The position numbers were made by a program, and so were the translations under genes. DNA of 60,124 nt from a virus, in the IMG/VR virus record IMGVR_UViG_3300045993_000895, positions 1 to 60,124 of that record. One strand, 5' to 3'. The notes under the pieces are model-generated. The model searched no databases, was not told where the DNA came from, and saw nothing but the letters and a program-made list of their open reading frames with translations. Shown here in pieces: positions 1,578 through 16,695 of the stretch (position 1 is its first letter; every line of letters begins with the position of its first letter).

Positions 1578-1921
1578 GCGCCCTTCAGGACGAGATCAAG
1601 GCCGCCGTCGCCGCCGCTCTCCGCGAGGAGCTCCCGCGCCTGCTCCGCGAGGTCACCCCTGCGAACGACCCCACCTCGCCCGACTCCTGGCTCTCGGTGG
1701 CGCAGGCCGCGAAGCTCGGGGCCTTCGAGCCTGGCACGATCGCCGACCACATCGAGCGGGGGAACCTCCCCGCGGCCAAGCCGAAGGGCTCCCGGGAGTG
1801 GCGGATTCGGCTGGCCGACTTCCGGGCCTTCATGGGCTGGCAGAAGCAGCCCGACGCCGTGGACATCGACCGTAGCGTGAGGCACATCCTCGGACGCGCG
1901 CCCGGAGGGGGAGGGCGGTGA
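1574..1921 (+). CDS. Excisionase-like MerR-type HTH protein
   Basis: 115 residues. The N-terminus (about 1-35) is helical. Residues about 36-90 read SWLSVAQAAKLGAFEP, then HIERGNLPAAKPKGSREWRI and a D-F-x-x-F ending, the layout of the helix-turn-helix 17 family: an HTH, a wing with a basic turn, and a final aromatic helix. Proteins like this next to a tyrosine integrase commonly act as recombination directionality factors. The gene lies directly upstream of the integrase with a GTGA overlap, which supports the role. It could instead be a simple regulator of the operon. Confidence 0.7.
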   Translation: MSALQDEIKAAVAAALREELPRLLREVTPANDPTSPDSWLSVAQAAKLGAFEPGTIADHIERGNLPAAKPKGSREWRIRLADFRAFMGWQKQPDAVDIDRSVRHILGRAPGGGGR

Positions 1922-3120
1922 CCGAGGAGGTCCTGGTGCCGAAGGACTGGAGCGCCCGCGTCCAGCAGAGGGGCGGGAAGCTGTACGTCGAGTTCAAGGA
2001 GAACGGCCGCTGGGTCCAGCGGGTGACGCCCTGCAAGGTCGGCGAGGAGAAGGCCGCCGAGTCCATCGCCAGGAAGATCGAACGGGAGCTGAAGGAGCGA
2101 GAGGCCTTCGCCGACGAGACCGGGATCGTGACGGTCCGATCGTTCGGCGAGAAGTGGCTCGAGCGGCGCAAGCGGCTCCCGAGCTGGCAGGACGACGAGA
2201 GCCACCTGAAGCACCACATCTACCCGCGCTTCGGCGGAAGCCTGCTCGTCGAGGTGAAGCCGAAGATGGTCCGGAAGATGATGGACGAGCTCGAGCTCGC
2301 CGGCCTGGCGCCCCGGACCCGGCGCAACATCTACTCGACCGGCCGGTCGCTCTTCCGCGCGGCCCAGTTCGAGGAACTCATCGTCGCGTCGCCGTTCATC
2401 CTCTCCCGCGAGGACATGCCGAAGCCGCGGGATGTCGATCCCCGGTGGCGCAAGACGGCGATCTTCCTCCCGACCGAGGTCGAGCAGCTCATCAGCGATG
2501 CGAGCGTCCCGCAGGACCGGCGTGTCATCTACGCGCTTCTGTTCCTCGGCTGCGCGCGGTTCGGCGAGATGGCCGCGCTCCGGTGGCGTCATATCGAGGC
2601 GCGGGTGCCGCTCGCCTGCCTCGAGATCAGCGCGAGCTACAACGTCCGCTCCAAGAAGGAGAAGGGCGTGAAGGCTGGCCCGGGACGGGAGGTGCCCGTC
2701 CACCCCACGCTCGCGAAGGTGCTAGCGGCATGGAAGCTCACCGGCTGGAAGGAGATGTTCGGCCAGGACCCGAAGCCGGACGACCTGATCGCGCCGAGCC
2801 GCAAGGGCAAGAACCGCTCGGTGAACCACGGCCTCAAGAAGTTCCACGAGGACCTCGAGCGGCTGGAGCTGCGCGTGCGGCGCCAGCACGACTCCCGGAG
2901 GACGTTCGCGACGCTGGCCGAGAATGCCTGCCGGGACCGCGAGGCGGTGAAGTGGATCGTGCATGGGCGGGCCGGCGACGTGCTCTCGCAGTACACCGAT
3001 GCCGAGTGGGACCGGCTCTGCGCCGCCGTCCTGTCGGTCAAGATCGAGCTGCGGGAGGGCAGGGTGCTAGCTCTGGGCCCGACCCCGAATCTCCTGCAAT
3101 CTCCTGCAAGCGTTTCCTGA
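1918..3120 (+). CDS. int: Tyrosine recombinase integrase
   Basis: A 400-residue phage integrase with the expected order: an N-terminal arm-binding region (about 1-60), a SAM-like core-binding domain (about 62-150) and a catalytic domain (about 185-370). Catalytic residues visible are R214 (GCARFGEM), H324 and R327 (QHDSRRTF), H349 (WIVHGRAG) and nucleophile Y359 (SQYTD), so the enzyme looks intact. It starts at GTG overlapping the excisionase-like gene (GTGA). Its last bases include the direct repeats at 3091-3110, and a tRNA-like 3' end follows at 3164-3191, so it probably recombines attP there with a host tRNA gene. Confidence 0.95.
   Translation: MTEEVLVPKDWSARVQQRGGKLYVEFKENGRWVQRVTPCKVGEEKAAESIARKIERELKEREAFADETGIVTVRSFGEKWLERRKRLPSWQDDESHLKHHIYPRFGGSLLVEVKPKMVRKMMDELELAGLAPRTRRNIYSTGRSLFRAAQFEELIVASPFILSREDMPKPRDVDPRWRKTAIFLPTEVEQLISDASVPQDRRVIYALLFLGCARFGEMAALRWRHIEARVPLACLEISASYNVRSKKEKGVKAGPGREVPVHPTLAKVLAAWKLTGWKEMFGQDPKPDDLIAPSRKGKNRSVNHGLKKFHEDLERLELRVRRQHDSRRTFATLAENACRDREAVKWIVHGRAGDVLSQYTDAEWDRLCAAVLSVKIELREGRVLALGPTPNLLQSPASVS
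3091..3110. promoter_or_regulatory. Candidate integrase arm-type sites, left arm
   Basis: Two direct copies of CTCCTGCAA, ten bases apart, lie inside the end of the integrase gene. The same pair occurs in inverted orientation at 3294-3311, beyond the tRNA-like core. Paired direct repeats flanking a core in opposite orientation are the usual arrangement of arm-type integrase sites. Binding is inferred from position and symmetry. Confidence 0.6.
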
Positions 3121-3311: not shown

Positions 3312-3348
3312 TGGCGATCGCGAGCCGCCCGAGGGCGCGCTCGAGCTC

Positions 3349-5685
3349 TCACGCCGCCGTCGCGTGCGCCGTCGAGACGAGCGTCCCGAACGCCTGCACG
3401 CTCTCCGTCCCGTCCGGCTCCACGAGCACCACGTCGTAGGCGAGGCTTCCCGACGCCGCGATGTCGCCGGCGCGAACGTAGATCCCGACGACGCCGGCCG
3501 CCTGATCCTGCACGAGGATGTCCTGCGACGGCCCGTACTTCTGGAGCAGCATCGCGCCGTCGAGCTTGCGCCGGACCCCGAAGCGCAGGGTCGCGCCGGC
3601 GAGGTTGATCGGCGTCCGGCCGTTGCGACGCCGGCAGGCGACCACGATCGCGAAGGATGCGCCGGCGGCGACCGAGAGGTTGCGCGAGGCCGTCATGCTC
3701 CTCGCGCCCGTCGAGACGACGACCCCGCCGTCGCGCCTCGGGGCGGCCCGGTCCGCGAGGGCGAGCGCCACCGCGCCCGTCGTGTTTTGGACGTGGACGA
3801 GTTCGAGGAAGGCGCCGAGGTCGATCGACAGGGCGCACGAGGCCGCGAGAGCATTCTGCGCGCCGACCGTGCCGGCCAGCGAGAGCGAGATGGCGTCGCC
3901 GGCGAGGAGCCCGTAGAGCGCCCGCGGGGTGCCTGCATCGCCGAGCGAGAACCCGGAAGCGGCCGCGATGGGCCGGTCGGGGACCGCCGCGTCGCCGAGG
4001 TGGAGCGCCGAGGCTCCCGTGAGCGGGACCGCTTCGAGCGGCGCTGCGCCCAGGTCGAGACGAAGCGGGGCCGGGCCCGCGAGGGCGCTGGCGGACTTCG
4101 GCGGCGCCGCAAGGGCCAGCGAGATCGAGACAGGGCAGCCGGAGGTCGCCCCTGCGCCGGGAGCGCCGGCGGCGGACAGGGAGAGCGACGACGCGCCGGT
4201 GAGTTGGAGGAACGTCCCGGAGGCCGGAGCGGCTCCGAGCGCCAAGGAGAGCGCGTCCGAGCCGGAGATGGACTCCGCGGCCGCCGGCTGCGCCGAGCCG
4301 GCGATGGAGATGGCGCCCGCGCCGGACAGCGCGCCCGAGGAGGTGAGCGACGGGACCGAGGCGTGGACGAGTTGGAGCCCGGACGCGCCCACGAGCGCGT
4401 CGGCGGCGGCCGGCGTGGATGCGTGGGCAAGCCGCTCGCTGATCGCCGAGGCGAGGGAGGCGGCCTCTGCCGGGGCGGACGAGCCGGCGAGCGAGATGGG
4501 TCCGGCGACGGCGACCGCCTCGGCTGCGGCCGGAGTCGCTGTGCCCGCGAGCGCGAGCGCGTCGGCCGCGGAGAGTTGACCGGCGGCGGCGACGGAGCCG
4601 GACGCGGCGAGGGAGATCCCCTCGGCGCCGGACAGGGCGCCCGCGGCCGTGGGCGTCGCCGTCTCGGCGAGGCTGATCGCGGAGGCGCCGGAGAGCGACC
4701 CGGAGGCGCCCGTGCTGATGCCGCCCGAGAGCGCGGAGGAGATCGAGGACGCGCCGGTGAGCGCGTCGGCGGAGGTCGGAGCGGCCGCGTCGGCGAGAGC
4801 GAGCCCGACGGCGGCCGAGGGGCCGATCCTGGGCGCGGCGGCGAGTGCGACCTGGAGTGCGTCGGCGGCGGTCGGTGCAGCCGCCGCGACCGGCACGGCG
4901 GCGTCGGCGAGCGAGGCCGTGACGGCGCCCTGCTCGGCGAGCGCCTGGGCTGGAACGCCGGCGTCGGCGAGCGCGATCGTGGTCGCGGAGGCGACGGCTC
5001 CGGCCGCGAGGGGCGGCGCTGCCGCTGCTAGGGCGATGGCCTCTGCGCCGGTGAGCGCGAGAGCCTGGGAGGGCGTCGCCGCTCCGGCCAGCGCCTCGGC
5101 GGCCGCGCCGGAGATGGAGTCTGCGCTCGTTGGAGTCGCAGCCCCGGCCAGCGCGACCGCCGAGTTACCAGCAAGGGCCCCGCTCGCTCCCGTGCTGATG
5201 GCGGAGGCGTGGGCGAAGGAGATCGAGTCGGCGCCCGCGAGGGCAAGACCGGCCACGGGCGTGCCAGCGTCGGCGATGGCGATGGCGACCGCGCCGGTCT
5301 TGGCCTGCCCGAAGGAGATCGCCGATGCGTCGGCGAGAGCGACCGCCGAGGCCGCGGTGAGTGCATCGGCGCCCGCCGGCGTCGCCGCGAGGGCGCAGGA
5401 GATGGCCGCCGCAGACGCGAGGGCGCCGGATGCCTTCACGGTGGAGGCGTGGGCGAGCGACACCGCGTCGGCGCCGACGAGCGCGAGAGCCTCCGTCGGC
5501 GCACCGGCGTCCGCCGCCGAGATCGCGTCCGCGCCGGTGAGTGCGTACTTGACCGACGGGGCGGCCGACAGCGCGAGGCTGACGCTGCCGGCTCCGGTGT
5601 CGGAGACGGGCCCGCCGCCACCCGCCGACGCGAGGTCGAGGATGACGGCCGTGATGATGCCGCTGCGGCGGGGCAGGAAGGCCAT
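3349..5685 (-). CDS. Giant 20-residue-repeat protein with BppU-like C-terminal domain
   Basis: 778 residues. After a short N-terminus, about 30 tandem units of close to 20 residues fill residues 28-650, with consensus ALxGAxAISLAxAaTPxaad. The last 125 residues are a different domain with INLAGATLRFGVRRK and LAYDVVLVEPDGTESVQ. It closely parallels the free-standing 120-residue protein at 9494-9856 and resembles the N-terminal Ig-like domain of phage baseplate upper proteins (BppU). The repeats may form a beta-solenoid or fibrous shaft; this is inference. Start at 5685 has GAGG upstream. It is the last gene of the leftward transcript. Two other strong paralogues lie at 9866-11086 and 11099-16363. 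A structural or fibre role is likely but not shown. Confidence 0.8.
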   Translation of the reverse strand: MAFLPRRSGIITAVILDLASAGGGGPVSDTGAGSVSLALSAAPSVKYALTGADAISAADAGAPTEALALVGADAVSLAHASTVKASGALASAAAISCALAATPAGADALTAASAVALADASAISFGQAKTGAVAIAIADAGTPVAGLALAGADSISFAHASAISTGASGALAGNSAVALAGAATPTSADSISGAAAEALAGAATPSQALALTGAEAIALAAAAPPLAAGAVASATTIALADAGVPAQALAEQGAVTASLADAAVPVAAAAPTAADALQVALAAAPRIGPSAAVGLALADAAAPTSADALTGASSISSALSGGISTGASGSLSGASAISLAETATPTAAGALSGAEGISLAASGSVAAAGQLSAADALALAGTATPAAAEAVAVAGPISLAGSSAPAEAASLASAISERLAHASTPAAADALVGASGLQLVHASVPSLTSSGALSGAGAISIAGSAQPAAAESISGSDALSLALGAAPASGTFLQLTGASSLSLSAAGAPGAGATSGCPVSISLALAAPPKSASALAGPAPLRLDLGAAPLEAVPLTGASALHLGDAAVPDRPIAAASGFSLGDAGTPRALYGLLAGDAISLSLAGTVGAQNALAASCALSIDLGAFLELVHVQNTTGAVALALADRAAPRRDGGVVVSTGARSMTASRNLSVAAGASFAIVVACRRRNGRTPINLAGATLRFGVRRKLDGAMLLQKYGPSQDILVQDQAAGVVGIYVRAGDIAASGSLAYDVVLVEPDGTESVQAFGTLVSTAHATAA
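3735..5604 (-). repeat. Tandem protein-coding repeats, about 60-base period
   Basis: About 30 diverged units, mostly exactly 60 bases, encode the 20-residue motif. A few units are 17-18 or 22 residues. Codon usage varies between units, so most copies are old, unlike the near-identical pair at 15571-15676. The repeats leave several other frames without stop codons. Confidence 0.85.
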
Positions 5686-5710
5686 CGGCTACCTCGGGAC
5701 GGGAGTGGAT

Positions 5711-5773
5711 CTACTGCGGCAGGCAGCCGGGGACGCAGGCGTAGATCGCCCAGAACCGAAGCCAGGGGAGCAT
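5711..5773 (-). CDS. Possible 20-residue hydrophobic peptide
   Basis: A short ORF coding MLPWLRFWAIYACVPGCLPQ fills the gap between the exported protein upstream and the repeat protein downstream. Its ATG overlaps the preceding stop by one base (TGATG), which favours re-initiation. The peptide is hydrophobic with two cysteines and could insert in a membrane. There is no other support. Confidence 0.3.
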   Translation of the reverse strand: MLPWLRFWAIYACVPGCLPQ

Positions 5774-6558
5774 CACGGGCCTCCGACGCGGAACCCGAAG
5801 CGGCGGGTTGGCGCAAGGCGGGGGGCTGTTGCGCCGGACGGAGCGGCCAGGATCTCCAGGGCGACAGCGCCGAGGTCTGCGTTGGTCGTCACGGTCGCAG
5901 ATCCGAACGTCACGGCACCGGGACCGCTGGTCAGGTAGCCCGCTGCCGCGTTCTCGTTGTCGGATGCCCACCCGATCTGCCGGATGTACGTCGTGTTTGC
6001 CAGCGCAGGCCAGGACGCGCCCGACAGCGACGACGCGACCCAGGCTCCCAGGATCAGCGATCCGGCGGCGTCGGCGGTGATCGTGATCGACGCGGCTACT
6101 GCCGGCGCAGCGTTCTGCGAGATCGACGCAGGGGACGAGCCGAACGGGTTCGCGATGTTGTGCCCGGTGAGAGCTGCGACGTGAAACATGATGATCCCAG
6201 AGTCGGGCGCAGTCATGGTCAGCGTGATCGCCTGTGCGGTCAGTTGCGTTGGGGCCGACGCTGTCCAGATCTCGGCGAAGTTCCATACGCCGCCGCTACT
6301 GGCGCTGACTCGCTTCGTCCAAGCGAGCCCGCCGCCAGCAACAGACGAAATGTGGACGCCACCTGTGAACGGCGCATTCCCGCAGATCGCGACGATGAGC
6401 CGATCCGGCCCGCTCGTCGTGAGCGTGATGGTCGATGTCGTCACGTTGACGGTGCCGTTGCCGGCCACGCTGCCGTCGAGCCAAGAGCCGTCGAGAACCG
6501 GATCGGCTCTCGCCTCGTTTGCGATCAAGAGCAGGAGGAGCGGAAGAACGCGGCGCAT
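5773..6558 (-). CDS. Exported beta-rich protein in fibre block
   Basis: 261 residues with a clear Sec signal peptide: MRR, a Leu-rich core, and an ARA cleavage site near residue 18. The mature part alternates Ser/Thr-rich strands (NVTTSTITLTTSG, GGLAWTKRVSASS, WNFAEIWTASAP), a pattern seen in phage minor structural proteins with jelly-roll or Ig-like folds. An export signal on such a protein is unusual for a virion component made in the cytoplasm. No catalytic motif is seen. It lies between a signal-peptide fibre-like gene and the 778-residue repeat protein, in the same leftward transcript. Confidence 0.7.
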   Translation of the reverse strand: MRRVLPLLLLLIANEARADPVLDGSWLDGSVAGNGTVNVTTSTITLTTSGPDRLIVAICGNAPFTGGVHISSVAGGGLAWTKRVSASSGGVWNFAEIWTASAPTQLTAQAITLTMTAPDSGIIMFHVAALTGHNIANPFGSSPASISQNAAPAVAASITITADAAGSLILGAWVASSLSGASWPALANTTYIRQIGWASDNENAAAGYLTSGPGAVTFGSATVTTNADLGAVALEILAAPSGATAPRLAPTRRFGFRVGGP

Positions 6559-6569
6559 TGTCGTGCCTC

Positions 6570-7844
6570 CTAGTTGTCGCTCTCGCAGTACATCATGATG
6601 AAGCTGATACCGAAGTTGGCCGCGGACCCGTTCGCAGCGTAGATGCGCGGAGCCAGGAACGACGTGTTGCTAGGCAGAGCGCCGACCGCGCTGAACGTGG
6701 TGGTACAGGATGCGATGTCCACATCCAGCCGCTTCAACTCCAGGCTCGCAGTCGTACTCGACGGGGCCGAGTAGATGGACAGCGCGAACGTGGACGTGGG
6801 CGAGTTTTTCGCGAAGTTGGCGCCACAGTCCACGCACGTCGCGCTTCCGGTCGCGTCATTCCCACAGAGGGCGGCGGTGGTGGAGGCGCTTGACCAGCCC
6901 GCGAAGAGCGAAGAAGTCGCATTGACGACGGCCTGCGTCCCGGAGGGAGCGCCGATGTTTGTGGACAGCCCGATAAATGCCTGCGACGTGGACAGCGGCA
7001 CATGGTTGATCCAGCGAAACTGGCAAAAGAAGCCGCCCAGGCCCGCTGCGTTGCCTCGCCAGAAAGTCGCAGGGGACGAGACGTAGATGCCGGCTGCCGT
7101 GCCGTTGGTCGCGCCCGTGCTGTACGGGGCGCGCTTCGTAGACGATGCCATTGTGCCGCCGGAGAAAACGGCAGCGGCAGCCGTGCCTACGGCCGTGGTA
7201 GCCCATCCGGCGTCCGACTTGCCTGCGGACGCGCCCGTGAAGATGGTGTAGCCGACGCCGTTCGACCAGATGGCGGGCTGTGCGAACTGGTCAACCCCCG
7301 AGGGTGCCATCCACGCGAGCAGCGCCCGATTGGCTCGCGTCCTGGCGAACAACGTGGCCCCGTTGGTGGGCGGCGCTGGAATGGGAGACGAGGGCAGCGT
7401 CAGGTAGCCAGCCCCGTCGCTGGCTGCGTAGACGAGGCCGCCCAGCGAACCGCCGCCAGCATTGAACTGCACGCTCGACGCGGACCCTCCAGGGGTGATG
7501 CCCGCGCTCGCGACGGTGCAGTCGGTCCTGGTGGATCCCGCGTTGTCGGCGCACGAGATGCCCGCCCCGGTGAAGTTGAGGTTGGTTCTAGCCGTCAGCG
7601 AAACGGCCTCGTCCTGAATCGTGTGCCCGCCGCCGCCGCCGCCCGAAGACGAAGACGGGCTGGAGATCGTGAGGATGCCGCCCGTCAGCGAGCAGGTCGA
7701 GCTACCGGAGCAGTTAAGAACCGTCGCCGCGCCGAGCGGCGTGCCTGCGTTCTGGGCCTGGAGCGGCATCTGCGAGATGCCCGCGCCGACCAAGACCACG
7801 GAGACGAGGGCGGCGAGCCCGCCCATGAGGAATGATCGGCGCAT
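6570..7844 (-). CDS. Exported fibre-like protein
   Basis: 424 residues from ATG at 7844, set by an ATGA overlap with the upstream gene; the same frame is open further upstream but that would overrun the neighbour. The N-terminus is a long hydrophobic signal sequence (residues about 5-33). Residues about 80-90 are a Ser/Gly linker. The C-terminal half resembles phage tail-fibre tips, with a short NTSFLAPRIYAANG segment and a cysteine pair (CVDC). Binding to a surface ligand is inferred from that resemblance. The signal sequence is at odds with a normal tail fibre. Confidence 0.7.
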   Translation of the reverse strand: MRRSFLMGGLAALVSVVLVGAGISQMPLQAQNAGTPLGAATVLNCSGSSTCSLTGGILTISSPSSSSGGGGGGHTIQDEAVSLTARTNLNFTGAGISCADNAGSTRTDCTVASAGITPGGSASSVQFNAGGGSLGGLVYAASDGAGYLTLPSSPIPAPPTNGATLFARTRANRALLAWMAPSGVDQFAQPAIWSNGVGYTIFTGASAGKSDAGWATTAVGTAAAAVFSGGTMASSTKRAPYSTGATNGTAAGIYVSSPATFWRGNAAGLGGFFCQFRWINHVPLSTSQAFIGLSTNIGAPSGTQAVVNATSSLFAGWSSASTTAALCGNDATGSATCVDCGANFAKNSPTSTFALSIYSAPSSTTASLELKRLDVDIASCTTTFSAVGALPSNTSFLAPRIYAANGSAANFGISFIMMYCESDN

Positions 7845-8119
7845 CAGTAGGCTCCCAGGTAGCGAATGGTGAACGTCGGGTCGGCCGGCGCCCCGCTGCT
7901 GGCCTCGAACGCGAGCGACATGGCGTCCTCGCGGAGGACGACCAGCGGAGGCGCGAGGCGCGCGGTGCCGGCGCACTGGAAGGCGACCGTCTCGCCTCCG
8001 ATCATGACCTTCAGGGAACCGTCTGCGTCACCGCAGTCGATCGCGATGATGAGGCGGTCGGCTGACGGCAGGTTGTCGAACGGCTGCGCTGCGCCTGGAA
8101 TCCACTGTGCGATGCTCAT
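7844..8119 (-). CDS. Small fibre-block protein
   Basis: 91 residues, not recognised. The sequence is beta-rich with two cysteines (AIDCGD and FQCAG) and no signal peptide. The start follows the neighbouring stop after three bases, and the stop overlaps the next ATG as ATGA. It is probably a small structural or chaperone-like component of the adjacent exported proteins. Confidence 0.6.
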   Translation of the reverse strand: MSIAQWIPGAAQPFDNLPSADRLIIAIDCGDADGSLKVMIGGETVAFQCAGTARLAPPLVVLREDAMSLAFEASSGAPADPTFTIRYLGAY

Positions 8120-8122
8120 GGG

Positions 8123-9190
8123 TCACCAATCGGAAACGCAGATCGTGATGGAGGCGCCGGTTTCGGAAATGAAGGCGACGGCTCCCTTGTAGGTGCCGTC
8201 GAGGCTCAGAGACTGACCGGGTTCGAGCGGCATCTGGGTCGCGGTCGCCGTGCCGCTGAACGAGTAGCGAGCGCGGACCGTGTTGGTCGAGAGCGATGTC
8301 GCCAGCGCGCCGATCCGGGCCGTGCGAGCCGCCAGCAGGGCGTTGGAGGTCGTCACGGCGGAGCAGGTTCCGGCCGTCGTTGCCGCGCTAGCCGTCGCTG
8401 GCGTGATCAGCAGGCCCGTCGAGGATGCGCCGCGCATCCGATCCCAGGTTGTCCCGTTGAACACCATGTTGTGCGCCTCGGTTTCCGCGGCCCCCGCGGT
8501 CACGACGGCCTCGGTGTCGATGTTGGTCCCGCCGCTGCTCGCGCGCTCCCAGGCGGTGCCGTTCCAGCCCAGTTGATACGCTCCGGCCTTCATCGCGTCG
8601 GTTGGGTTTGCCAGCGCATCGCCGAGGGTTGTTGCGCCGCCCGTCGTCCCGGTGACGGCGAGAGGCTGCCCGCCGGAGATCCCCTGGACCGTGACGACGC
8701 CGGCGGCAGGAGTACCGGCGGAGCCAGAGCCCTGAATCGCGTTGCCGATGGTGGGCGCGATCGTGGCGATCACCGTCGCGGCCGCGCTGCCGCTCGTGAC
8801 GGCTGATGCCCGGACCCGGCAGTAGCGCGCTCCTCCGGCCAGCGCGACCGAGAGCGCCTTCGCGGCGCCGCTCGCAGTCGTGGTCGAGGAGAGCCCGTTG
8901 CCGAGCGAATCGACGAGCGCGGACCCGACCCACCCCACCCCGTCGTAGGAGTAGTCGGCCTTGACCGTGCCGACAAGCGTCGTCGAGGTCGGGATGTTGA
9001 AGCCGCAGCCGCCGGCGCCGGCAATCGCGACCTGCACGGTCGAGTTCGCGGGGCAGGCGTTGATCGAGGCGTCGGCGCAGGCCGCCGACAGCGTGCCGGA
9101 GGCGATCACGTCAGGCGTGAGCGTCGTGAAGGTGGCGGCGCCGGCCGACGCTGACAGGAGCAGGACGGCGAGAGCGATGGGGGCGCGCAT
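8123..9190 (-). CDS. Exported two-domain adhesin-like protein
   Basis: 355 residues with a Sec signal peptide (MRAPIALAVLLLSASAGA, cleavage near residue 18). The N-terminal domain (about 40-150) has strands like VGTVKADYSYDGVGWVGS and a late RYCRVRASAVTSG, resembling the exported protein at 18579-19268 in strand order (TLTAWASRDGGSSW, then VKVQMTAWTSGS). Later segments repeat LGWNGTAWERA and MVFNGTTWDRM, motifs familiar from phage fibre and receptor-binding proteins. The C-terminus has an ISETGASITICVSD strand. An adhesin or fibre role is likely; secretion is predicted from the leader alone. Confidence 0.7.
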   Translation of the reverse strand: MRAPIALAVLLLSASAGAATFTTLTPDVIASGTLSAACADASINACPANSTVQVAIAGAGGCGFNIPTSTTLVGTVKADYSYDGVGWVGSALVDSLGNGLSSTTTASGAAKALSVALAGGARYCRVRASAVTSGSAAATVIATIAPTIGNAIQGSGSAGTPAAGVVTVQGISGGQPLAVTGTTGGATTLGDALANPTDAMKAGAYQLGWNGTAWERASSGGTNIDTEAVVTAGAAETEAHNMVFNGTTWDRMRGASSTGLLITPATASAATTAGTCSAVTTSNALLAARTARIGALATSLSTNTVRARYSFSGTATATQMPLEPGQSLSLDGTYKGAVAFISETGASITICVSDW

Positions 9191-9490
9191 TTAGGACTCC
9201 TCCTCGACGAAGAGCACGGTGTTGACGTTGGAGACGGCGTAGATGGCGATGGCGGGCCCGCGGGCGCGCTCCTCCATGATCCCGGCCTGCATCGGCCAGC
9301 CGTTCGCGGCCGTGACGCCGGAGGTTGGCCCGAGGAAGACCTGGGCGGAGGTGTCGAGCGAGAGGCCGCGCCAGATGAGGGCGCTCGCGAGCCTCGCCCC
9401 GGCGGACCCGGCCCCGACGAGGGCTGGAGTTCCGGCTGTGAGCGCGATCTGTGCCGTCGCGGTGGCGGTGTTCGCGTAGGGGGTCGTCAC
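9191..9490 (-). CDS. Small beta-domain fibre-block protein
   Basis: 99 residues from GTG at 9490. The pattern VFLGPTSGVTAANGWPM followed by IAIYAVSNVNTVLFVEE matches the C-terminal half of the 170-residue protein at 19272-19784 (IYIGNAGVTIATGF, then IALYAVAEN). I infer one shared beta-fold reused at both ends of the fibre block. It has no signal peptide. Its position directly behind the BppU-like protein fits a baseplate-peripheral or fibre-cap role. Confidence 0.65.
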   Translation of the reverse strand: MTTPYANTATATAQIALTAGTPALVGAGSAGARLASALIWRGLSLDTSAQVFLGPTSGVTAANGWPMQAGIMEERARGPAIAIYAVSNVNTVLFVEEES

Positions 9491-9493
9491 GGG

Positions 9494-9856
9494 CTACCTC
9501 GACGGGTGGTCGGTGAAGAGGAACTGGCCGAGGCCCTGGACCGACTCGGTGCCGTTCGCCTCGACGACCACAACGTCGTAGGCGAAGGCGCCGGCAGAGG
9601 TCGTGTCGGCGGGACGGAGGACGAACGTCACGAGGCCGTTGACGGCGTCGCTGAACGTCACGTCGGGGTTCGCTGCGCCGCCCTGCACGGCGACCTTCTG
9701 GACGACGAAGGCGACATCGGCGACCCGCTTCTTGATGCCGAACTTGACGGTCCCGCCGGTCAGGTCGATCGGGGTCGTGCCGTCCGAGCGGTTGCAACTC
9801 ACGTTGATCGTCACCGTCTCCCCCGCGAACGCGGAGAAGTTTTGCTGGGTCGCCAT
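9494..9856 (-). CDS. BppU N-terminal-like Ig-fold protein
   Basis: 120 residues. The motif order TINVSCNRSDGTTPIDLTGG, VKFGIKKR, FVLRPADTTSAGAFAYDVVV and EANGTESVQGLGQFLF matches the N-terminal domain of phage baseplate upper proteins (BppU/DUF2479), in which D-G-x-P-x-D-L-T is characteristic. It is also clearly paralogous to the last 125 residues of the 778-residue repeat protein. In other phages this domain anchors receptor-binding proteins to the baseplate. Here it stands alone beside two repeat giants. Confidence 0.75.
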   Translation of the reverse strand: MATQQNFSAFAGETVTINVSCNRSDGTTPIDLTGGTVKFGIKKRVADVAFVVQKVAVQGGAANPDVTFSDAVNGLVTFVLRPADTTSAGAFAYDVVVVEANGTESVQGLGQFLFTDHPSR

Positions 9857-9865
9857 CCGGGCCTC

Positions 9866-11086
9866 CTACTGCTGGTTGGTTTCTGGGTCTGCCGCGCCCT
9901 GGAGCGCGAAGACCGAAGAGGCGGCCCCGGCGAGCGCGATCACGGGCCCTGCGCGGCCGACGAGAGCGGCGGGGCTTGATCCTGCGTGGCCCGCGAAGGA
10001 AAGGGTCTTTTGCTGCACGCCAACGAGCGAAAGATTCGGCGCCGTTTTTCCGTTCAGCGGCAGCGGCCGGTCGATGTCGGCCGCCGCGAGGCCAGCGAGC
10101 GAGAGCGCGGCCAAGCCGCCAGGGCCGCAGAAGACCGCCGGTGCGCCGCCGAGCGAGAGCCCGAGGCCGGCCGTCGCGGAGCGCCCAGTGTCCGGCGTCC
10201 CCGCGAGGTCGAGGCGCAGGGTCGCCGCGCCGAAGACCGCCGCCGCGGGACCGCCGCCCAGGTCGATGCGGAGCGGTGCCGCCGCCCCCGCCGCCGCTCC
10301 CGCCGCCGCGACGCCGCTGCCGGCGAGCCCGAGTTGTGCTGCTCCCGACGCCGGGAGCGCGACAGCGGTCGCGGCTTGCGCGCCGACCTGTAGCCCCAGC
10401 CCGCCGGCCGGCTGCGTGGCGCTGGCGGGCGCCGCGGCAGCGACAAGGAGCGCCCCGGCCGTGCCAGCAACCGGGATGGACGCCGCCGGAACAGCCGAAC
10501 CGGCGAGCTGGAGCATTTCTCCTGCCGCCGGTGTCGCGAGCGCGACCGGCGATCCTGCGAGGGCGAGCGAGACGCCGACCGGGGCGCCGGGGGATGCCGA
10601 GGCGAACGGTTCGGAGATCCCGAATAGTTGGATCGCCGCACCAGCGAGCGGCGACGCCTGGGCCGACGCCTGGGCGCTGGCCCCGATCGGCAGGCCGTCC
10701 GCGCCGAGCAGCGCCTCCTTGGCTGCCGGCGCAGCGCCGAGCGAGAGCGCGATCGGCGAGGTGGCGCCGAAGAGTTGAGCGATGGCGGCCGCGCCCGAGA
10801 GCCGGAGCCCGGAGGCGCCCGAGAGAGGTGCGCTCGGGACCGCGGCGCAGGCGAGGGCGATGACGCCCGCTGCCGAGATCGGCCGGTCGGCGACGGCACC
10901 GCCGGCGAGCGCGACAGCCGACGCGCCGGACAGCGCGCAGCGGCTGGTGATCGTCGCCCCGGCCGCGAGCCCGACCTGCGCCGGGCAGGTGATGGGCCTC
11001 GACGGGATCGCCGCGCCCGAGAGCGAGAGCGTGACCGAGCCAGCCAGCGCGAGCACCGGGCTGCGGAGGAGAAGGAGGACCGTCAT
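9866..11086 (-). CDS. 20-residue-repeat protein, 406 residues
   Basis: Built almost entirely from about 18-20 imperfect units of the ALSGASAVALAGGAV type that also make up the 778- and 1754-residue proteins; spacing is less regular, about 17-23 residues. The N-terminus (MTVLLLLRSPVLALAGS) is hydrophobic and resembles that of the 1754-residue paralogue; I read it as a first repeat rather than a classical signal peptide. GGGAGG precedes the ATG, supporting the start. There is no BppU domain. A fibrous structural role is inferred. Six-frame openness here comes from repeat composition, and only this frame gives the coherent repeat. Confidence 0.75.
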   Translation of the reverse strand: MTVLLLLRSPVLALAGSVTLSLSGAAIPSRPITCPAQVGLAAGATITSRCALSGASAVALAGGAVADRPISAAGVIALACAAVPSAPLSGASGLRLSGAAAIAQLFGATSPIALSLGAAPAAKEALLGADGLPIGASAQASAQASPLAGAAIQLFGISEPFASASPGAPVGVSLALAGSPVALATPAAGEMLQLAGSAVPAASIPVAGTAGALLVAAAAPASATQPAGGLGLQVGAQAATAVALPASGAAQLGLAGSGVAAAGAAAGAAAPLRIDLGGGPAAAVFGAATLRLDLAGTPDTGRSATAGLGLSLGGAPAVFCGPGGLAALSLAGLAAADIDRPLPLNGKTAPNLSLVGVQQKTLSFAGHAGSSPAALVGRAGPVIALAGAASSVFALQGAADPETNQQ

Positions 11087-11098
11087 GTCGGCCTCCCG

Positions 11099-14000
11099 CT
11101 AGAGCAGCGCGCCGTCGAAGAGCACGTCGGGGTCGGCCTGTCCGACGAGGGTCAGCACGGCAAGCTGCCGGCCGATGAGGTCGAACGGGCCGGAGCGCCG
11201 GCCGGCGACGGAGATCGCCGCGAGTTGCCGCCCGATGAGATCCACCGTGGTGTCGGCGGAGCCGAGCCCCCACCCGGGAGCAGCGGCCGCACCGAGCGAG
11301 AGCCCGAGGGAGCCGGCGAGCGCCCGGGCCGCGCCGGGAGACGCCGCCGCCTGGAGGCTGATCGCCGACGATCCCGCGAGCGCGCCGGAGGCAGCCGGGA
11401 CTCCCGCCGCGCCGATCGAGATCCCGTCCGACCCGGACAGCGCGATCCCGGTCGAGAGGGCGATCCCCCCGGAGCCGGCCAGGGCGAGCGCGACGGAGCC
11501 AGCGAGGGCGTCCGCCTCCGCGATGGCGCCGGATTCTCCGAGCGACAGCGGCAGATTGCCCACGAGGGAGATGGCAGAGCCGCCGGAGCCCGCCGCGTCG
11601 GCGAGGGCGATCCCCGAGGAGCCCGAGAGGCCGATCGCCGTCGTGCCGGCGGCCGCGTCGGCGAGCGAGATCCCGTCCGCTCCTGCGAGCGCGGCCGGCT
11701 GGGAGAGGGCGCCGGCGAGGGCGACCGAGACGGCGGAGGCTGCCGCCGGGGTGAACTGCTCGGCCGGTGCGCCCGCCGCCGCGAGGGAGATCCCCGCGGC
11801 CGCGAGCGTCGGAGCGGTCAGCGATGCCGCCGCCGAGAGCGCAGCCGTCAACTGAGAATTGCCTGCGAGTCCAGCGACCTGCGCCGTGACCGCCGCGTCG
11901 AGCAGGTTGCTCGTCAACTGCCCGGCGAGCGGGGAGACGAGCGACGGGATCGCCGACAGGCCGAGGGCGAGTTGGTCGCTCGCGCCTGCCTCGCCGGCCT
12001 CCCGGATCTGGGCCGCGTAGGCGAGCCCGATCGCGTCCGAGCCCTGCGCCTGGAGGAGCACCGAGCCCGCCGCCGAGAGCGCGAGTCCGACCGAGGAGGC
12101 CCCGAGGAGCCCGCTCCGGGGCGAGGCCGCGAGAGCGAGTTGCAGCGCGCAGGCGGCGGAGGGCCCGCGCAGGAGAGTCGCTCCGTCCGCCAGCGAGATC
12201 GCGGAGGCGAGGGCGGGGCTCGTGACGGCGGCGATGGCCGCGGAGCCGGTGAGCGAGATCGCGGAGGTGCCGGAGAAGACGTTGGCCGAGTCGGCGAGGC
12301 CGATCGCCAGCGAGCCGGTCAGCGCGGCCTGTGTGGATGGCGCCGAGAACTGGAGCGCGATCGAGAACGCGACATCCCCGAGCGGCCCGAGGAGCGCCGT
12401 CACGATCGCCGCGTCGGCGAGCGACAGCGGGCAGGGGAGGGCCGGGGAGAACTGCGCTGCGAGGACGATCGCGTCGCCGATGGACGCGGCGGAGTCGCCC
12501 GCGAGCGCCTGGGCCTCCGCGACGGAGCCGGCGAGGCCGAGGCCGATCGCCACGTCGCCCGCGAACAGGACGGGAGCGTTCGCGATCTGCGAGGACACCG
12601 CCGCGCCGAGCGCGAGGGAGAGCGGGCCGGTCCCGGCGAGCGGGCCGGAGGGCGCGGCTGACGCGGCCAGCGAGAGCGAGGCCGCCCCGGCGAACGACCC
12701 GAACGGCGAGCCCTGGTCGTTGACCTGGATGAGGCACGCGCCCGAGAGCGGCCCGGACGGCACGCCCGCCGCGGAGAGGGCGATGCTCCCGGCGCCGGTG
12801 AGCGAGCCGAGCGGGGTGGTCTGGGCCGTGAGGCCGATGGCGACCGGGATGTCGCCGACGAGGGAGAGCCGGATGTCGCCGAGCGGGTTGCTGGCGGACG
12901 GGACCGCCGCACAGTCCAGGGCGATCGAGGCGACCGCCGCCGGCGGGGTCGTCGGGGTCGCCGCGTCCGCGAGCCCAATCGCGCAGGAGCCCGAAAGAGG
13001 GCCGGAGGGTCGCGCCGAGGCGGTCGTGTAAATGTAGGCCGCGCCCGCGATGCTGCCCGAGGGCCGGCCGGAGAGGTCGAGTCCGATGCCGCAGTTGCCA
13101 GCGAGGGGGCCGCTCGGCGCCGCGAGGTCGGTGATCGACAGGAGCGAGAAGCCGCCCATCGACACGGGGCCGGTCCCGTAGGCCGTCGCCGCGAGGCCGA
13201 TCGCCAGGGAGCCCGCGAGCGGCCCGGAAGGGGCTCCGGCGAGGGCGATGGAGGCCGGAGCCCAGCCGAGAGGCCGGCAGGTCGTCGCCGGGGCTCCCGC
13301 GTCCGCGACCTGGACGGACGCCGCGCCGGAGATCGGCAGAACCAGCGATGGCGCCGCGCCGTCCGCGAGGGACAAGGACGAGGCGCCGGCCAGGGCGAGG
13401 TTCTGGTTCGTGACCGAGAGCGACGGCGCGATGGCGAGCGCGGAGGCAGCCGTGAGGGCGTCGGCCTCCTTGGGCGAGGCCGCGCAGGCGATCGACAGCC
13501 CGTCGGCGCCGGCCAGGGAGATGAACAGGCCGGACGACGGCGAGGCCCCGCAGGCGAGCGAGATCGCCGAAGCGCCCGTCGATGCGTCGGCCGTGGCGGG
13601 CGCGGCGGAGCCTGCGATCTGCTCCGTCGCGGCGCCGGAGAGGGCCTCGGCCGCCTTGGGGGCGGACGCATCGGCGAGCGAGACGGCCGACGCAGCCGTC
13701 AGCGACCCGCCGCCGTTGATCGTGGCCGAGTCGGCGAGGGCGAGTCCGATCGCGCCGGACACGCCTCCGGCGGCGGACGGCACTCCCGCGCCGGCAAGGG
13801 CCAGCAGGTCGGCGCCCGAGAGCGCCTCGGAGACGGTCGGGCCCGCCGCGTCGGCGATGGAGATCGCCGAGGCCGCGGACAGGGCTCCGCCGGGCGTGGG
13901 GGTGGCGCCATCGGCGAGGGAGATCGCCCCGGCGGCCTGGAGCGCCTCCGCGGCGGAGAGGGTCGCCGCAAGGGCAAGCTGCTCGCCGCAGGCCCCCGCG

Positions 14001-16363
14001 ATGGCATCGGCGGCCCGCGGGGTGCCCGCGCAGGCGATCTGCATCGGTGCGGCGCCGGTGATCGAGCCGCCAAGCTCTGTCGGGACCGCCGCGTCGGCCA
14101 CCTGGATCGCGACGGCGCCGGCGAGGCCCAAGGAGGCCGCTGGCGTGCCCGTGGCGGCAAGCTGGAGGGAGTCCGAGCCCTGTAGCGGGGCGGCCAGCGA
14201 GAGCGCCCCAGAGAGCGCCAGGGAGAGCGAGGAGGCGGCCGACGCTCCGATCGCGGGGAGGGCCGAGCAGGCAAGCTGCAGCGGATCGGCAGCCGAGGGT
14301 GCGTCGGCACACGCGGGCGCTGCGGCGCAGGCAAGCGCGAGGGCCGAGGCGCAGCCCATGCCGATCGCCGGGCTGCCGGAGAGCGCGATCTGCTCGGACG
14401 CCGCGCCGGAGATCGCCTCGGCTGCCCGCGGCGTGGCGGCGAGGGCGAGTTGGTCGGCGCAGGCGGCGATGACGGCGCCGGAGAACGAGACGGTCGCGGC
14501 GCACGCGATCTGGATCGCCTCGGTGGCGCTCTGGTAGGCGAGGGCCACGGCCGGAGCGGCAGAGTCGGCGAGCGCGATGGCGCTGGACGCCGATGGGGCC
14601 TCCCTGCTGGACGGGGCCGCCGCGAGGGCGATCTGGAGCCCGGAGGCAGCCGTCACGCCGGAGGTCGCAGCCGGCGCCGCGGAGCAGGCCAGCGAGAGCG
14701 CGTCCGACGCCGCGGGCGACTCGCTGGCCTTCGGGACGGAGGCGAGGGCGAGGGAGATCGGGCAGGCGCCAGAGATGGCGTCGGCCTCCGAGATGCCGCC
14801 CGCGCCGGCCAGGGAGATCGGGTCCGCGCACGAGATGGCGCTCACTCCGCCCGGGGAGGCCCCGAGGGCGATGGACAGCGGCCCGGCGCCCGCTACCGCA
14901 TCGGCCGAGGTTGGGATGGAAGCAAGGCCGAGCGCGTCGGCGACAGCCCCGGTCGGAGTCAGGCGGGCCGTCGGCGTGGCCGTCGCCGCGATGGCGATCG
15001 AGCAGGCCAGGACGGGCGAGAGGGTCCCGCCCGGGGCTCCCGCGCAGCCGATGGAGATGGACTCTGCGCCGGAGAGCGGCTTGGCGGCGAGCGGTGGCGC
15101 GGAGAGCGCGAGTGAGAGCGTCGAGGCGCAGTTCGCTCCGACCGAAGGCTTGGCGGCGTCGGCGAGCGCGAGAGCGTCGCTGGCCTGGATGGCGCCCTGC
15201 GCGGCGAGTGAGGAGGCGGCGGAGAGTTGGACGGCGCAGGAGGCGGAGAGGGCGTCGGACTCGCGCGGGACAGATCCGCCGGCCAGGGCGATCGTGTCCG
15301 CTCCCGCGAGCGCCAGCCCAGCCGTCGGCGTCGCGGCGCAGAGGAGCGAGATCCCTGCCGCGCCCGCAAACTGAGTTGTCCCCAGCGGCATGACGCTGGC
15401 GTAGAGCCGGATCTCGTTGATGCCGGTCGCGAGGCTGTCGGACTCAATGATCGCGCCGGCGTCGGCGAAGGAGATGGTCGCGGCGCAGTTCGCCCCGATC
15501 CGCACGGGTGCGGCGAGAGCGATGGAGATCGGGCAGGCGGCCGCCAGGGCGTCGGCCTGCTTGGGCGCGGGCGAGTTCGTCGCGAGCTGGATCGCGGTCG
15601 CGGAGGCGAGCGCGCCCGAGGCGGAGATCGCCGGCGAGTTCGTCGCAAGCTGGATCGCGGTCGCGGAGGCGAGCGCCTCGGCCGACTTCGGGACGGCCGA
15701 GCACGCAAGCTGGATCGGGCAGGCGCCGGTGAGCGCGGAGGCGCCCGAGGCCGTGGCGGCGCAGGCAAGCTGCTCGCCGAGCGCGGCCCGGACGGCATCG
15801 GCCTCGGTCGGGGCCGGGGAGTTGGTCGCAAGCTGGATCGCCGTCGCCGACGAGAGTGCCAGCGAGGAGCGAGGAGTCCCGGCGCACGCGAGCGAGACGG
15901 ACTCCGCGCCCGAGAGCGCCGTCGCCGAGGAGAGCGCCATGCCGCCGGCAAGCTGGAGCGCGACGTTGCCCGCGAGCGCGTGGGCCTCGCGAATCGCCGC
16001 GGCATCGGCCAGAGCGAGGCCGTCCGCGCCTGCGAGAGCCGTCCCGGCGAGGACCGGGCCCGCGAGCGCGATCTGGAGGGCGCTCGCCCCGGCGTCGGCG
16101 TCGGACTCCCGCGGCGTTGCCGCCAGCGCCGCCGAGATGGCGACGGCCGCCGTGAGGCCCGACGCCGACTTCGGCACGCCTGCGTCTGCGACAGCGATGG
16201 AGCTTGCGCCCGTCTCCGCCGCGGCGTGGGCGACGTTCGCGTTGCAGGCAAGCTGGACGCTCGACGCGCCCGAGATCGCCCGCGTCGGGGCGCCGGAGCA
16301 CGCAAGCGAGAGCGCGGCCGTCGCGGTGAGCGCACGGCTGCCGAACAGGAAGAGCAGAGACAT
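11099..16363 (-). CDS. 1754-residue giant 20-residue-repeat protein
   Basis: The largest gene in the window, about 9 percent of its length. Roughly 80-90 units of about 20 residues run almost end to end, consensus A-L-x-G-A-x-x-[IL]-x-L-A-x-A-x-x-P followed by four variable residues. Residues about 1020-1260 use a variant with PSGPLAG starts. The C-terminus carries two copies of DLIGRQLA. Composition is dominated by Ala, Ser, Gly and Leu, with several Cys (IQLACSA). AGGAGG precedes the start. If each unit is one beta-solenoid rung, the shaft would be about 40 nm, assuming 0.48 nm per rung. No known family is recognised. Its late operon and relatives point to a virion or fibre component. Confidence 0.8.
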   Translation of the reverse strand: MSLLFLFGSRALTATAALSLACSGAPTRAISGASSVQLACNANVAHAAAETGASSIAVADAGVPKSASGLTAAVAISAALAATPRESDADAGASALQIALAGPVLAGTALAGADGLALADAAAIREAHALAGNVALQLAGGMALSSATALSGAESVSLACAGTPRSSLALSSATAIQLATNSPAPTEADAVRAALGEQLACAATASGASALTGACPIQLACSAVPKSAEALASATAIQLATNSPAISASGALASATAIQLATNSPAPKQADALAAACPISIALAAPVRIGANCAATISFADAGAIIESDSLATGINEIRLYASVMPLGTTQFAGAAGISLLCAATPTAGLALAGADTIALAGGSVPRESDALSASCAVQLSAASSLAAQGAIQASDALALADAAKPSVGANCASTLSLALSAPPLAAKPLSGAESISIGCAGAPGGTLSPVLACSIAIAATATPTARLTPTGAVADALGLASIPTSADAVAGAGPLSIALGASPGGVSAISCADPISLAGAGGISEADAISGACPISLALASVPKASESPAASDALSLACSAAPAATSGVTAASGLQIALAAAPSSREAPSASSAIALADSAAPAVALAYQSATEAIQIACAATVSFSGAVIAACADQLALAATPRAAEAISGAASEQIALSGSPAIGMGCASALALACAAAPACADAPSAADPLQLACSALPAIGASAASSLSLALSGALSLAAPLQGSDSLQLAATGTPAASLGLAGAVAIQVADAAVPTELGGSITGAAPMQIACAGTPRAADAIAGACGEQLALAATLSAAEALQAAGAISLADGATPTPGGALSAASAISIADAAGPTVSEALSGADLLALAGAGVPSAAGGVSGAIGLALADSATINGGGSLTAASAVSLADASAPKAAEALSGAATEQIAGSAAPATADASTGASAISLACGASPSSGLFISLAGADGLSIACAASPKEADALTAASALAIAPSLSVTNQNLALAGASSLSLADGAAPSLVLPISGAASVQVADAGAPATTCRPLGWAPASIALAGAPSGPLAGSLAIGLAATAYGTGPVSMGGFSLLSITDLAAPSGPLAGNCGIGLDLSGRPSGSIAGAAYIYTTASARPSGPLSGSCAIGLADAATPTTPPAAVASIALDCAAVPSASNPLGDIRLSLVGDIPVAIGLTAQTTPLGSLTGAGSIALSAAGVPSGPLSGACLIQVNDQGSPFGSFAGAASLSLAASAAPSGPLAGTGPLSLALGAAVSSQIANAPVLFAGDVAIGLGLAGSVAEAQALAGDSAASIGDAIVLAAQFSPALPCPLSLADAAIVTALLGPLGDVAFSIALQFSAPSTQAALTGSLAIGLADSANVFSGTSAISLTGSAAIAAVTSPALASAISLADGATLLRGPSAACALQLALAASPRSGLLGASSVGLALSAAGSVLLQAQGSDAIGLAYAAQIREAGEAGASDQLALGLSAIPSLVSPLAGQLTSNLLDAAVTAQVAGLAGNSQLTAALSAAASLTAPTLAAAGISLAAAGAPAEQFTPAAASAVSVALAGALSQPAALAGADGISLADAAAGTTAIGLSGSSGIALADAAGSGGSAISLVGNLPLSLGESGAIAEADALAGSVALALAGSGGIALSTGIALSGSDGISIGAAGVPAASGALAGSSAISLQAAASPGAARALAGSLGLSLGAAAAPGWGLGSADTTVDLIGRQLAAISVAGRRSGPFDLIGRQLAVLTLVGQADPDVLFDGALL
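11180..16330 (-). repeat. Long tandem array of 60-base coding repeats
   Basis: About 85 diverged units of roughly 60 bases encode the protein repeat. Two units (15571-15613 and 15634-15676) match at 42 of 43 bases, 63 bases apart, showing recent unit duplication. A third related unit lies near 15818. Confidence 0.85.
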
Positions 16364-16404
16364 GGGCCGCCCCTCCTGGCTCGGGGTGCGCTACCGGACG
16401 ACGG

Positions 16405-16677
16405 CTACTTCCTCGCGCAGCAGAAGCAGGAGAGGATCGGCTGGATCCCCTCCTTCACCTCGACGACGTTGCCCCAGACGGTGGGCTGCCAGCGCGGCAG
16501 GCACTTCGCCGAGCAGACGACCTCGCCGTCCTCGACCTTCCAAGTGGTCTTCGACGGCTCGACGGAGATGCAGGGCGGGCGGACCGGCTTCTGCGGCGCC
16601 TGCGCGGGCGCGGCTGGCGTGCTGGACGCGGAGGGGACGGCCTGGGCGAGAATGGCGGCGATGACGAGGGCAAGCAT
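16405..16677 (-). CDS. Small exported Cys-rich protein
   Basis: 90 residues. Residues 1-20 (MLALVIAAILAQAVPSASS) form a hydrophobic leader. The mature part is a Pro/Ala linker then a compact domain with six cysteines (PPCISV, VVCSAKCLP, LSCFCCARK), probably disulphide- or metal-bonded. No family is recognised. It lies between a signal-peptide fibre-like gene and the 1754-residue repeat gene. Confidence 0.6.
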   Translation of the reverse strand: MLALVIAAILAQAVPSASSTPAAPAQAPQKPVRPPCISVEPSKTTWKVEDGEVVCSAKCLPRWQPTVWGNVVEVKEGIQPILSCFCCARK

Positions 16678-16695
16678 CGGCGTGGACTCCTGTGG

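Follow-up and report, generated by a model that had tools for sequence, protein, structure and literature searches.

The window analyzed here, the whole 60,124-base virus record IMGVR_UViG_3300045993_000895 (positions 1 to 60,124), comes from an uncultured bacterial virus and encodes three large proteins composed almost entirely of a 20-residue repeat. We consider it a new 20-residue beta repeat that most likely resides in fiber shafts, repetitive phage fiber shafts as such being already known. Comparison with a second phage, designated L011, indicates that the repeat sequence was replaced between the two phages while the 20-residue period stayed; this replacement, which was absent from an earlier, sequence-only reading of the same DNA, is, we think, the most informative part of the finding. 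Structural modeling and gene context together lead us to favor, with moderate confidence, the reading of the three proteins as shafts of phage adsorption fibers with a layered beta structure, and any particular fold is assigned with less confidence than this role.

Three proteins share a 20-residue repeat

The three ORFs (778, 406, and 1754 residues) are present on the minus strand exactly at the positions given in the sequence-only reading.

11099 to 16363, minus strand: 1754-aa repeat protein; repeat region at about residues 15 to 1684 (11312 to 16321), AGGAGG site, 71 units
11099 to 11296, minus strand: noncanonical C-terminal tail of the 1754-aa protein (DLIGRQLA..., final residues QADPDVLFDGALL), from direct reading
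9866 to 11086, minus strand: 406-aa repeat protein; 15 units at about 9920 to 11038, the ORF lying 12 bases past the 1754-aa gene
3349 to 5685, minus strand: 778-aa repeat protein; N terminus MAFLPRRSGIITAVIL, array at about 3715 to 5592, C-terminal BppU-like domain

Units were called with an iterated weight matrix, yielding the consensus A-x-A-[IL]-[SAQ]-L-A-x-A-[AG]-x-P-x4-A-L-x-G and 71 + 31 + 15 = 117 units in the 1754-, 778-, and 406-aa proteins, respectively (of the 31 calls in the 778-aa protein, 30 fall in the array and 1 in the C-terminal domain). Thus, the period of about 20 residues proposed earlier stands, and the proposed count of about 130 copies is replaced by 117. The regularity of the period is borne out by self-comparison, with z scores at lag 20 of 16.4 (1754 aa), 13.1 (778 aa), and 5.4 (406 aa) and further peaks at 40 and 60; the weight-matrix calls show the greatest degeneracy in the array of the 406-aa protein. 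When single-unit spacings were pooled across the three proteins, 20 was the most common (67 cases), followed by 18 (16), 22 (6), 24 (2), and 21 (2). Because the spacings other than 20 are nearly all 18 or 22, indels nearly always leave beta-strand alternation intact. In the autocorrelation of hydrophobicity, positive values prevail at even lags and negative values at odd lags. The proteins consist of about 28 to 30% Ala, 11 to 14% Gly, and 9 to 13% Ser. The C-terminal tail of the 1754-aa protein was found in the same virus only in a scan of IMG/VR.

The reading frame is real and the arrays are old

The G+C content of the stretch is 76 to 77%, and many frames are open for that reason: each gene has 0 to 1 stops in one other sense frame, and there are long antisense frames as well. 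An open frame by itself therefore proves little, so that the absence of stops invoked in the sequence-only reading is correct as a description but weak as proof, and the decision falls to codon positions. In a test run without the weight matrix, the excess of identity at a lag of 20 codons was concentrated at the first two codon positions in the 1754-aa gene (z of 7.6, 12.7, and 2.3 for positions 1, 2, and 3) and in the 778-aa gene (z of 5.9, 10.8, and 0.1). In addition, Shine-Dalgarno-like sequences precede all three genes (CCAGGAGG, CGGGAGG, and a weaker CGAGG), in agreement with the ribosome sites reported earlier. The reading frame of the repeat genes is real and under selection at the protein level.

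At the DNA level, the best identity between units is 73%, neighboring units are no closer than distant ones, and identity does not decay with distance along the array, indicating an old array that selection has preserved rather than a recent product of slippage. A second assembly, IMGVR_UViG_3300045747_000653 (77,656 bp), is 99.99% identical to the window over 17.4 kb and contains the same arrays. An artifact, whether a frame open by chance in highly GC-rich DNA or a repeat expanded by assembly, could draw only on the openness of other frames, and its probability is practically nil: the codon-position signal rules out a chance or wrong-frame ORF and, like the ribosome sites, refutes this explanation, and the lack of distance decay and of near-identical unit copies, together with the identical arrays in the second assembly, rules out recent slippage or misassembly.

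The virus and its genome

Both ends of the 77,656-bp contig map onto positions 18055 to 18201 of the window, an overlap of about 150 bases, so that a circular or circularly permuted genome (a circular map or a terminal repeat) of about 77.5 kb is probable, with about 17.4 kb of it outside the window. The genes recognized in the virus encode an integrase (phrog_1), terminase, portal, head morphogenesis protein, major capsid protein, baseplate wedge (phrog_6), and amidase-type endolysin; a search of the virus for tRNAs found none. The match to the baseplate wedge makes a contractile tail likely, and a putative sheath protein gave no match. The integrase, of the tyrosine type and located at the edge of the fiber region, shows that the phage is temperate. 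A distant relative, MW202476, was identified by its portal (30% identity); a scan of all ORFs in that record detected no such repeat arrays, and no BLASTP match was obtained for its tail proteins. Beyond the window, the same virus (L010, 18643 to 21388) appears, from ORF reading, to encode a phosphoadenosine-phosphosulfate-reductase-like or DndC-like protein and a cytosine-methyltransferase-like protein.

The repeat is absent from the libraries searched

No match to the repeat region was found among the Pfam, PHROG, and NCBIfam profiles, and PDB sequences gave no significant match (a single hit, E of 0.22). The earlier statement that no named family has this repeat thus holds within the libraries searched (Pfam, PHROG, NCBIfam, PDB sequences, and phage BLAST), with no hit to a well-known family among the models of the first three. 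When the repeats were compared by BLAST with 50,697 phage records, nothing significant was returned, a weak negative because BLAST masks low complexity. A degenerate DNA pattern spanning two units, sensitive only to close copies, matched the same virus only in IMG/VR; in 84,980 species genomes, it had 12 matches, in unrelated places and by chance. None of the 12 has such a 20-residue array, several being 10-residue Ala/Pro repeats or antisense-type frames. The 10-residue repeats (AP-x-L-x-VAA type) were seen in the actinobacterial ORFs L034, L035, L036, and L040, which are unrelated and possibly antisense frames themselves. Pentapeptide, RTX, and other named repeats were ruled out by the absence of a Pfam match; the 5-residue period of pentapeptide repeats is not enriched either (hydrophobic correlation at lag 5 of -0.11 and -0.13 in the two large proteins).

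The arrays belong to a probable fiber cassette with BppU-like domains

The repeat genes are located downstream of the terminase, portal, capsid, baseplate wedge, and endolysin genes and adjoin proteins with tail-appendage-type and BppU-like domains, an order and a neighborhood that support the late fiber region proposed in the sequence-only reading. From upstream to downstream, the genes encode the 626-aa fiber-like protein, a 90-aa protein, the 1754-aa and 406-aa arrays, the 120-aa BppU-like protein, and the 99-aa, 355-aa, about 424-aa, and 261-aa proteins, followed by the 778-aa array and then the integrase on the opposite strand.

16696 to 18576, minus strand: 626-aa fiber-like protein upstream of the arrays; signal-peptide-like N terminus, no family match
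9494 to 9856, minus strand: 120-aa protein with a BppU-N-like/phrog_1084 domain (phrog_1084, E of 1.3e-8), directly after the arrays
9191 to 9490, minus strand: 99-aa protein of the same gene run
8123 to 9190, minus strand: 355-aa secreted-looking fiber-cassette protein; 62% identity to its L011 counterpart
6570 to 7844, minus strand: about 424-aa fiber-cassette protein (468-aa ORF, internal ATG start); phrog_13925 (E of 3.5e-17), 81% identity to its L011 counterpart
5773 to 6558, minus strand: 261-aa fiber-cassette protein; signal-peptide-like N terminus, 53% identity to its L011 counterpart over its length
3349 to 3720, minus strand: C-terminal BppU-like/phrog_1084 domain of the 778-aa protein (residues 664 to 760; phrog_1084, E of 1.6e-8)
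1918 to 3120, plus strand: tyrosine-type integrase at the edge of the fiber region (phrog_1, E of 7e-36)

The about 424-aa protein has relatives in phages, and its start was inferred from the L011 homolog. The 90-aa protein (16405 to 16677), encoded just before the largest array, has a hydrophobic N terminus, a Pro/Ala-rich segment, and several cysteines, with no family match.

With 38% identity (E of 6e-29), the 120-aa protein represents the same domain as the C terminus of the 778-aa protein. Pfam BppU_N (PF10651) scores 19.0 bits on the 120-aa protein, under the cutoff of 23.1, and has no match on the C-terminal domain of the 778-aa protein. BppU of lactococcal phage TP901-1 links the receptor-binding proteins to Dit, the central core of the baseplate (PMC3893620). 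The 120-aa protein resembles the N-terminal domain of that BppU, as does the end of the 778-aa protein through the 38% identity; in contrast to TP901-1 BppU, the domain in the window is C-terminal or standalone, its Pfam score is below the cutoff, and it accompanies a long repeat array that has no counterpart in BppU. The domain is fused to the 778-aa array and separate from but adjacent to the 406-aa array, an arrangement which suggests that the BppU-like domain and the arrays cooperate.

Signal-peptide-like N termini are unusual in virion proteins. Such starts (for example, MRRVLPLLLLLIANEARA) were seen at 8123 to 9190, 6570 to 7844, 5773 to 6558, and 16696 to 18576 and at 3318 to 12933 in L011, and those of the cassette proteins have been kept between two otherwise unrelated phages.

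Lysogenic-conversion genes, like the repeat genes, are found between lysis genes and an integrase. This location, along with signal-peptide-like N termini on at least four nearby proteins, conserved in L011, is what would be seen if the repeat proteins were not parts of the virion but secreted or cell-surface proteins of the lysogen or infected cell, such as an adhesin, a biofilm protein, or an exclusion factor. We regard this as unlikely: the repeat proteins themselves lack a clear positively charged signal peptide, the BppU-like and phage-appendage domains favor a place in the virion, and the late genes on the same strand are tightly spaced with the repeat genes.

A second phage carries a different repeat with the same period

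A search with the product of the 468-aa ORF identified L011 (IMGVR_UViG_3300045993_000425), a phage contig of 166,843 bp, whose 357-, 425-, and 503-aa proteins are the counterparts of the 355-aa, 468-aa-ORF, and 261-aa products of the window (62%, 81%, and 53% identity, respectively). In L011, the place of the 778-aa gene is occupied by a 1652-aa gene (12964 to 17922), and the two products share their N termini (MAFFPKRSGIFTAVIL in L011 versus MAFLPRRSGIITAVIL in the window; 50% identity over 41 residues). The N-terminal style that the sequence-only reading had attributed to all three proteins of the window is weak among them, and it is in L011 that the 778-aa protein has its clear N-terminal relative; no phage beyond these two was found in IMG/VR with this N terminus.

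The 1652-aa protein contains 56 units of a 20-residue repeat (z of 22 at lag 20) with the consensus E-S-G-T-V-A-A-S-A-T-V-A-G-S-D-A-L-V-L-G (ESGTVAASATVAGSDALVLG), which lacks strict hydrophobic alternation. Comparison of the two repeat profiles with hhalign gave a probability of 4%, that is, no detectable relation. The two proteins are therefore alike in cassette place, N terminus, and period and differ in consensus and in the BppU-like end, which was not recognized in the 1652-aa protein. The final ~450 residues of the latter form another repeat, with RSG motifs.

The portal, capsid, and terminase proteins of the window have no detectable match in L011, and the fiber cassette was thus probably transferred between unrelated phages. 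The sample for a replacement that keeps the period is small (two phages), and the agreement on 20 may be due to chance.

A layered beta fold is predicted for the real frame

Nine regular units (residues 771 to 950) were modeled with AlphaFold2 as a single chain, using an alignment of the protein's own shifted windows. The prediction was a regular, solenoid-like beta fold (pLDDT of 73.8, pTM of 0.74; the five models span 73.8 down to 28.6), with three short strands in most units, at residues 4 to 6, 13 to 14, and 18 to 20. AlphaFold2 over-predicts beta-solenoids for repeats, confidently folding perfect repeats of random 20-residue units as such in 36 of 50 cases of a preliminary set (PMC11795689), and because of this bias, the antisense frame of the same DNA, which has equal period and Ala count and is under no selection, was folded as a control. 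The control gave no secondary structure (pLDDT of 45.5, pTM of 0.10). The prediction is hence specific to the real frame, the comparison being fair, if imperfect, in that the alignment of the control is shallower (32 rows versus 56). The low-complexity composition and the moderate, model-dependent confidence of AlphaFold2 would also suit a disordered, flexible spacer that is rich in Ala and Gly and adopts no fixed fold; this is very unlikely, given that even-lag alternation and the period are kept under selection and that, in the control, composition and period alone do not yield the predicted fold.

The predicted model has no significant relative by Foldseek; the best PDB matches, all nonsignificant, are mostly beta-solenoids, and those in the viral library are a mixed set, most of them without a name. 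The beta-solenoid shaft proposed earlier thus gains a predicted regular beta fold that the control lacks, and its identity as a solenoid is limited by the AlphaFold2 bias, the single chain, and the nonsignificant fold matches. In the predicted stacking of short strands, the model resembles the beta-solenoids of phage tailspikes, pectate-lyase-like proteins, and LpxD-like left-handed helices. It differs from them in its rung of 20 residues, its new Ala/Leu/Pro consensus, and arrays that are several times longer; no significant fold match was found, and no catalytic domain was recognized.

A beta-solenoid layer measures about 0.48 nm. At one such layer per 20 residues, the 1754-aa protein would be about 40 nm long; as an ordinary trimeric fiber, given the 1 nm per 12 to 20 residues of surveyed phage fibers (PMC3556154), it would reach about 88 to 146 nm. 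The lengths of 9 to 41 nm proposed in the sequence-only reading therefore hold only if each unit forms about one 0.48-nm rung.

Such a trimeric fiber, a triple beta-spiral or similar, would consist of three intertwined chains; each unit would contribute a turn and a variable loop besides two strands, and the largest protein would measure on the order of 100 nm. Phage fibers are usually trimers, which a single-chain AlphaFold2 run cannot reveal. Moreover, Pro/Gly at fixed places, alternating hydrophobic residues, and a loop of variable length recall beta-spiral shafts (PMC3150272) such as those of adenovirus fiber and reovirus sigma-1, where short repeats likewise set the length by their number. 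Those shafts, however, have a period of 15 rather than 20, with a published pattern of hydrophobic residues at c, e, g, k, and m and Pro/Gly at j (PMC3150272). This pattern (at least 4 of 5) occurs at 12 places in the 1754-aa protein (3.5 in shuffled sequences) and at 1 place in each of the other two, where it is not enriched; that is, it does not recur once per unit, nor did PDB sequences provide a match. Since a single chain, too, already forms regular layers in the prediction, we consider the trimeric fiber possible but rather doubtful.

A model for the role of the arrays

In the adsorption-fiber reading that we favor, each 20-residue unit would form one layer of short strands, composed of an I-x-L-A-x-A segment whose side chains alternate, a turn at Pro, a loop tolerating two-residue indels, and an A-L-x-G strand. 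Small residues (Ala, Gly, and Ser) would fill the narrow core, and stacking of the units would produce a long, stiff rod whose length is set by unit number and which would act as the fiber shaft. The BppU-like domains may serve as links between the rods and the baseplate or other fiber proteins, and neighboring proteins of the cassette may bear the binding tips.

The period of 20, the even and odd hydrophobic lags, and the indels of 18 or 22 are as expected for beta strands and support the layered beta structure; the late-gene position, the phage-appendage and BppU-like neighbors, and the syntenic replacement in L011 count for the role as a shaft. Counted against it are the signal-peptide-like N termini nearby, the position between lysis genes and the integrase, the solenoid bias of AlphaFold2, the self-shifted alignment, the spread of the models, and the lack of strict alternation in the L011 repeat.

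Implications

Fiber shafts determine the reach of a phage, and, to our knowledge, few long shaft folds are known. The repeat family described here is absent from the family libraries searched and occurs in three paralogous lengths within one phage. The wholesale replacement of the repeat in L011, with the period kept, makes the role of the 20-residue period directly testable, and rod length per unit offers a simple experimental distinction between a solenoid and a trimeric fiber. Such arrays would also be of interest as modular protein rods. We tentatively suggest, as a possibility, that only the length of the 20-residue layer is conserved: unrelated repeats of the same period may be swapped between phages behind one N-terminal anchor to build beta-solenoid rods, single-chain or homo-oligomeric, that are very long and comprise as many as about 85 layers.
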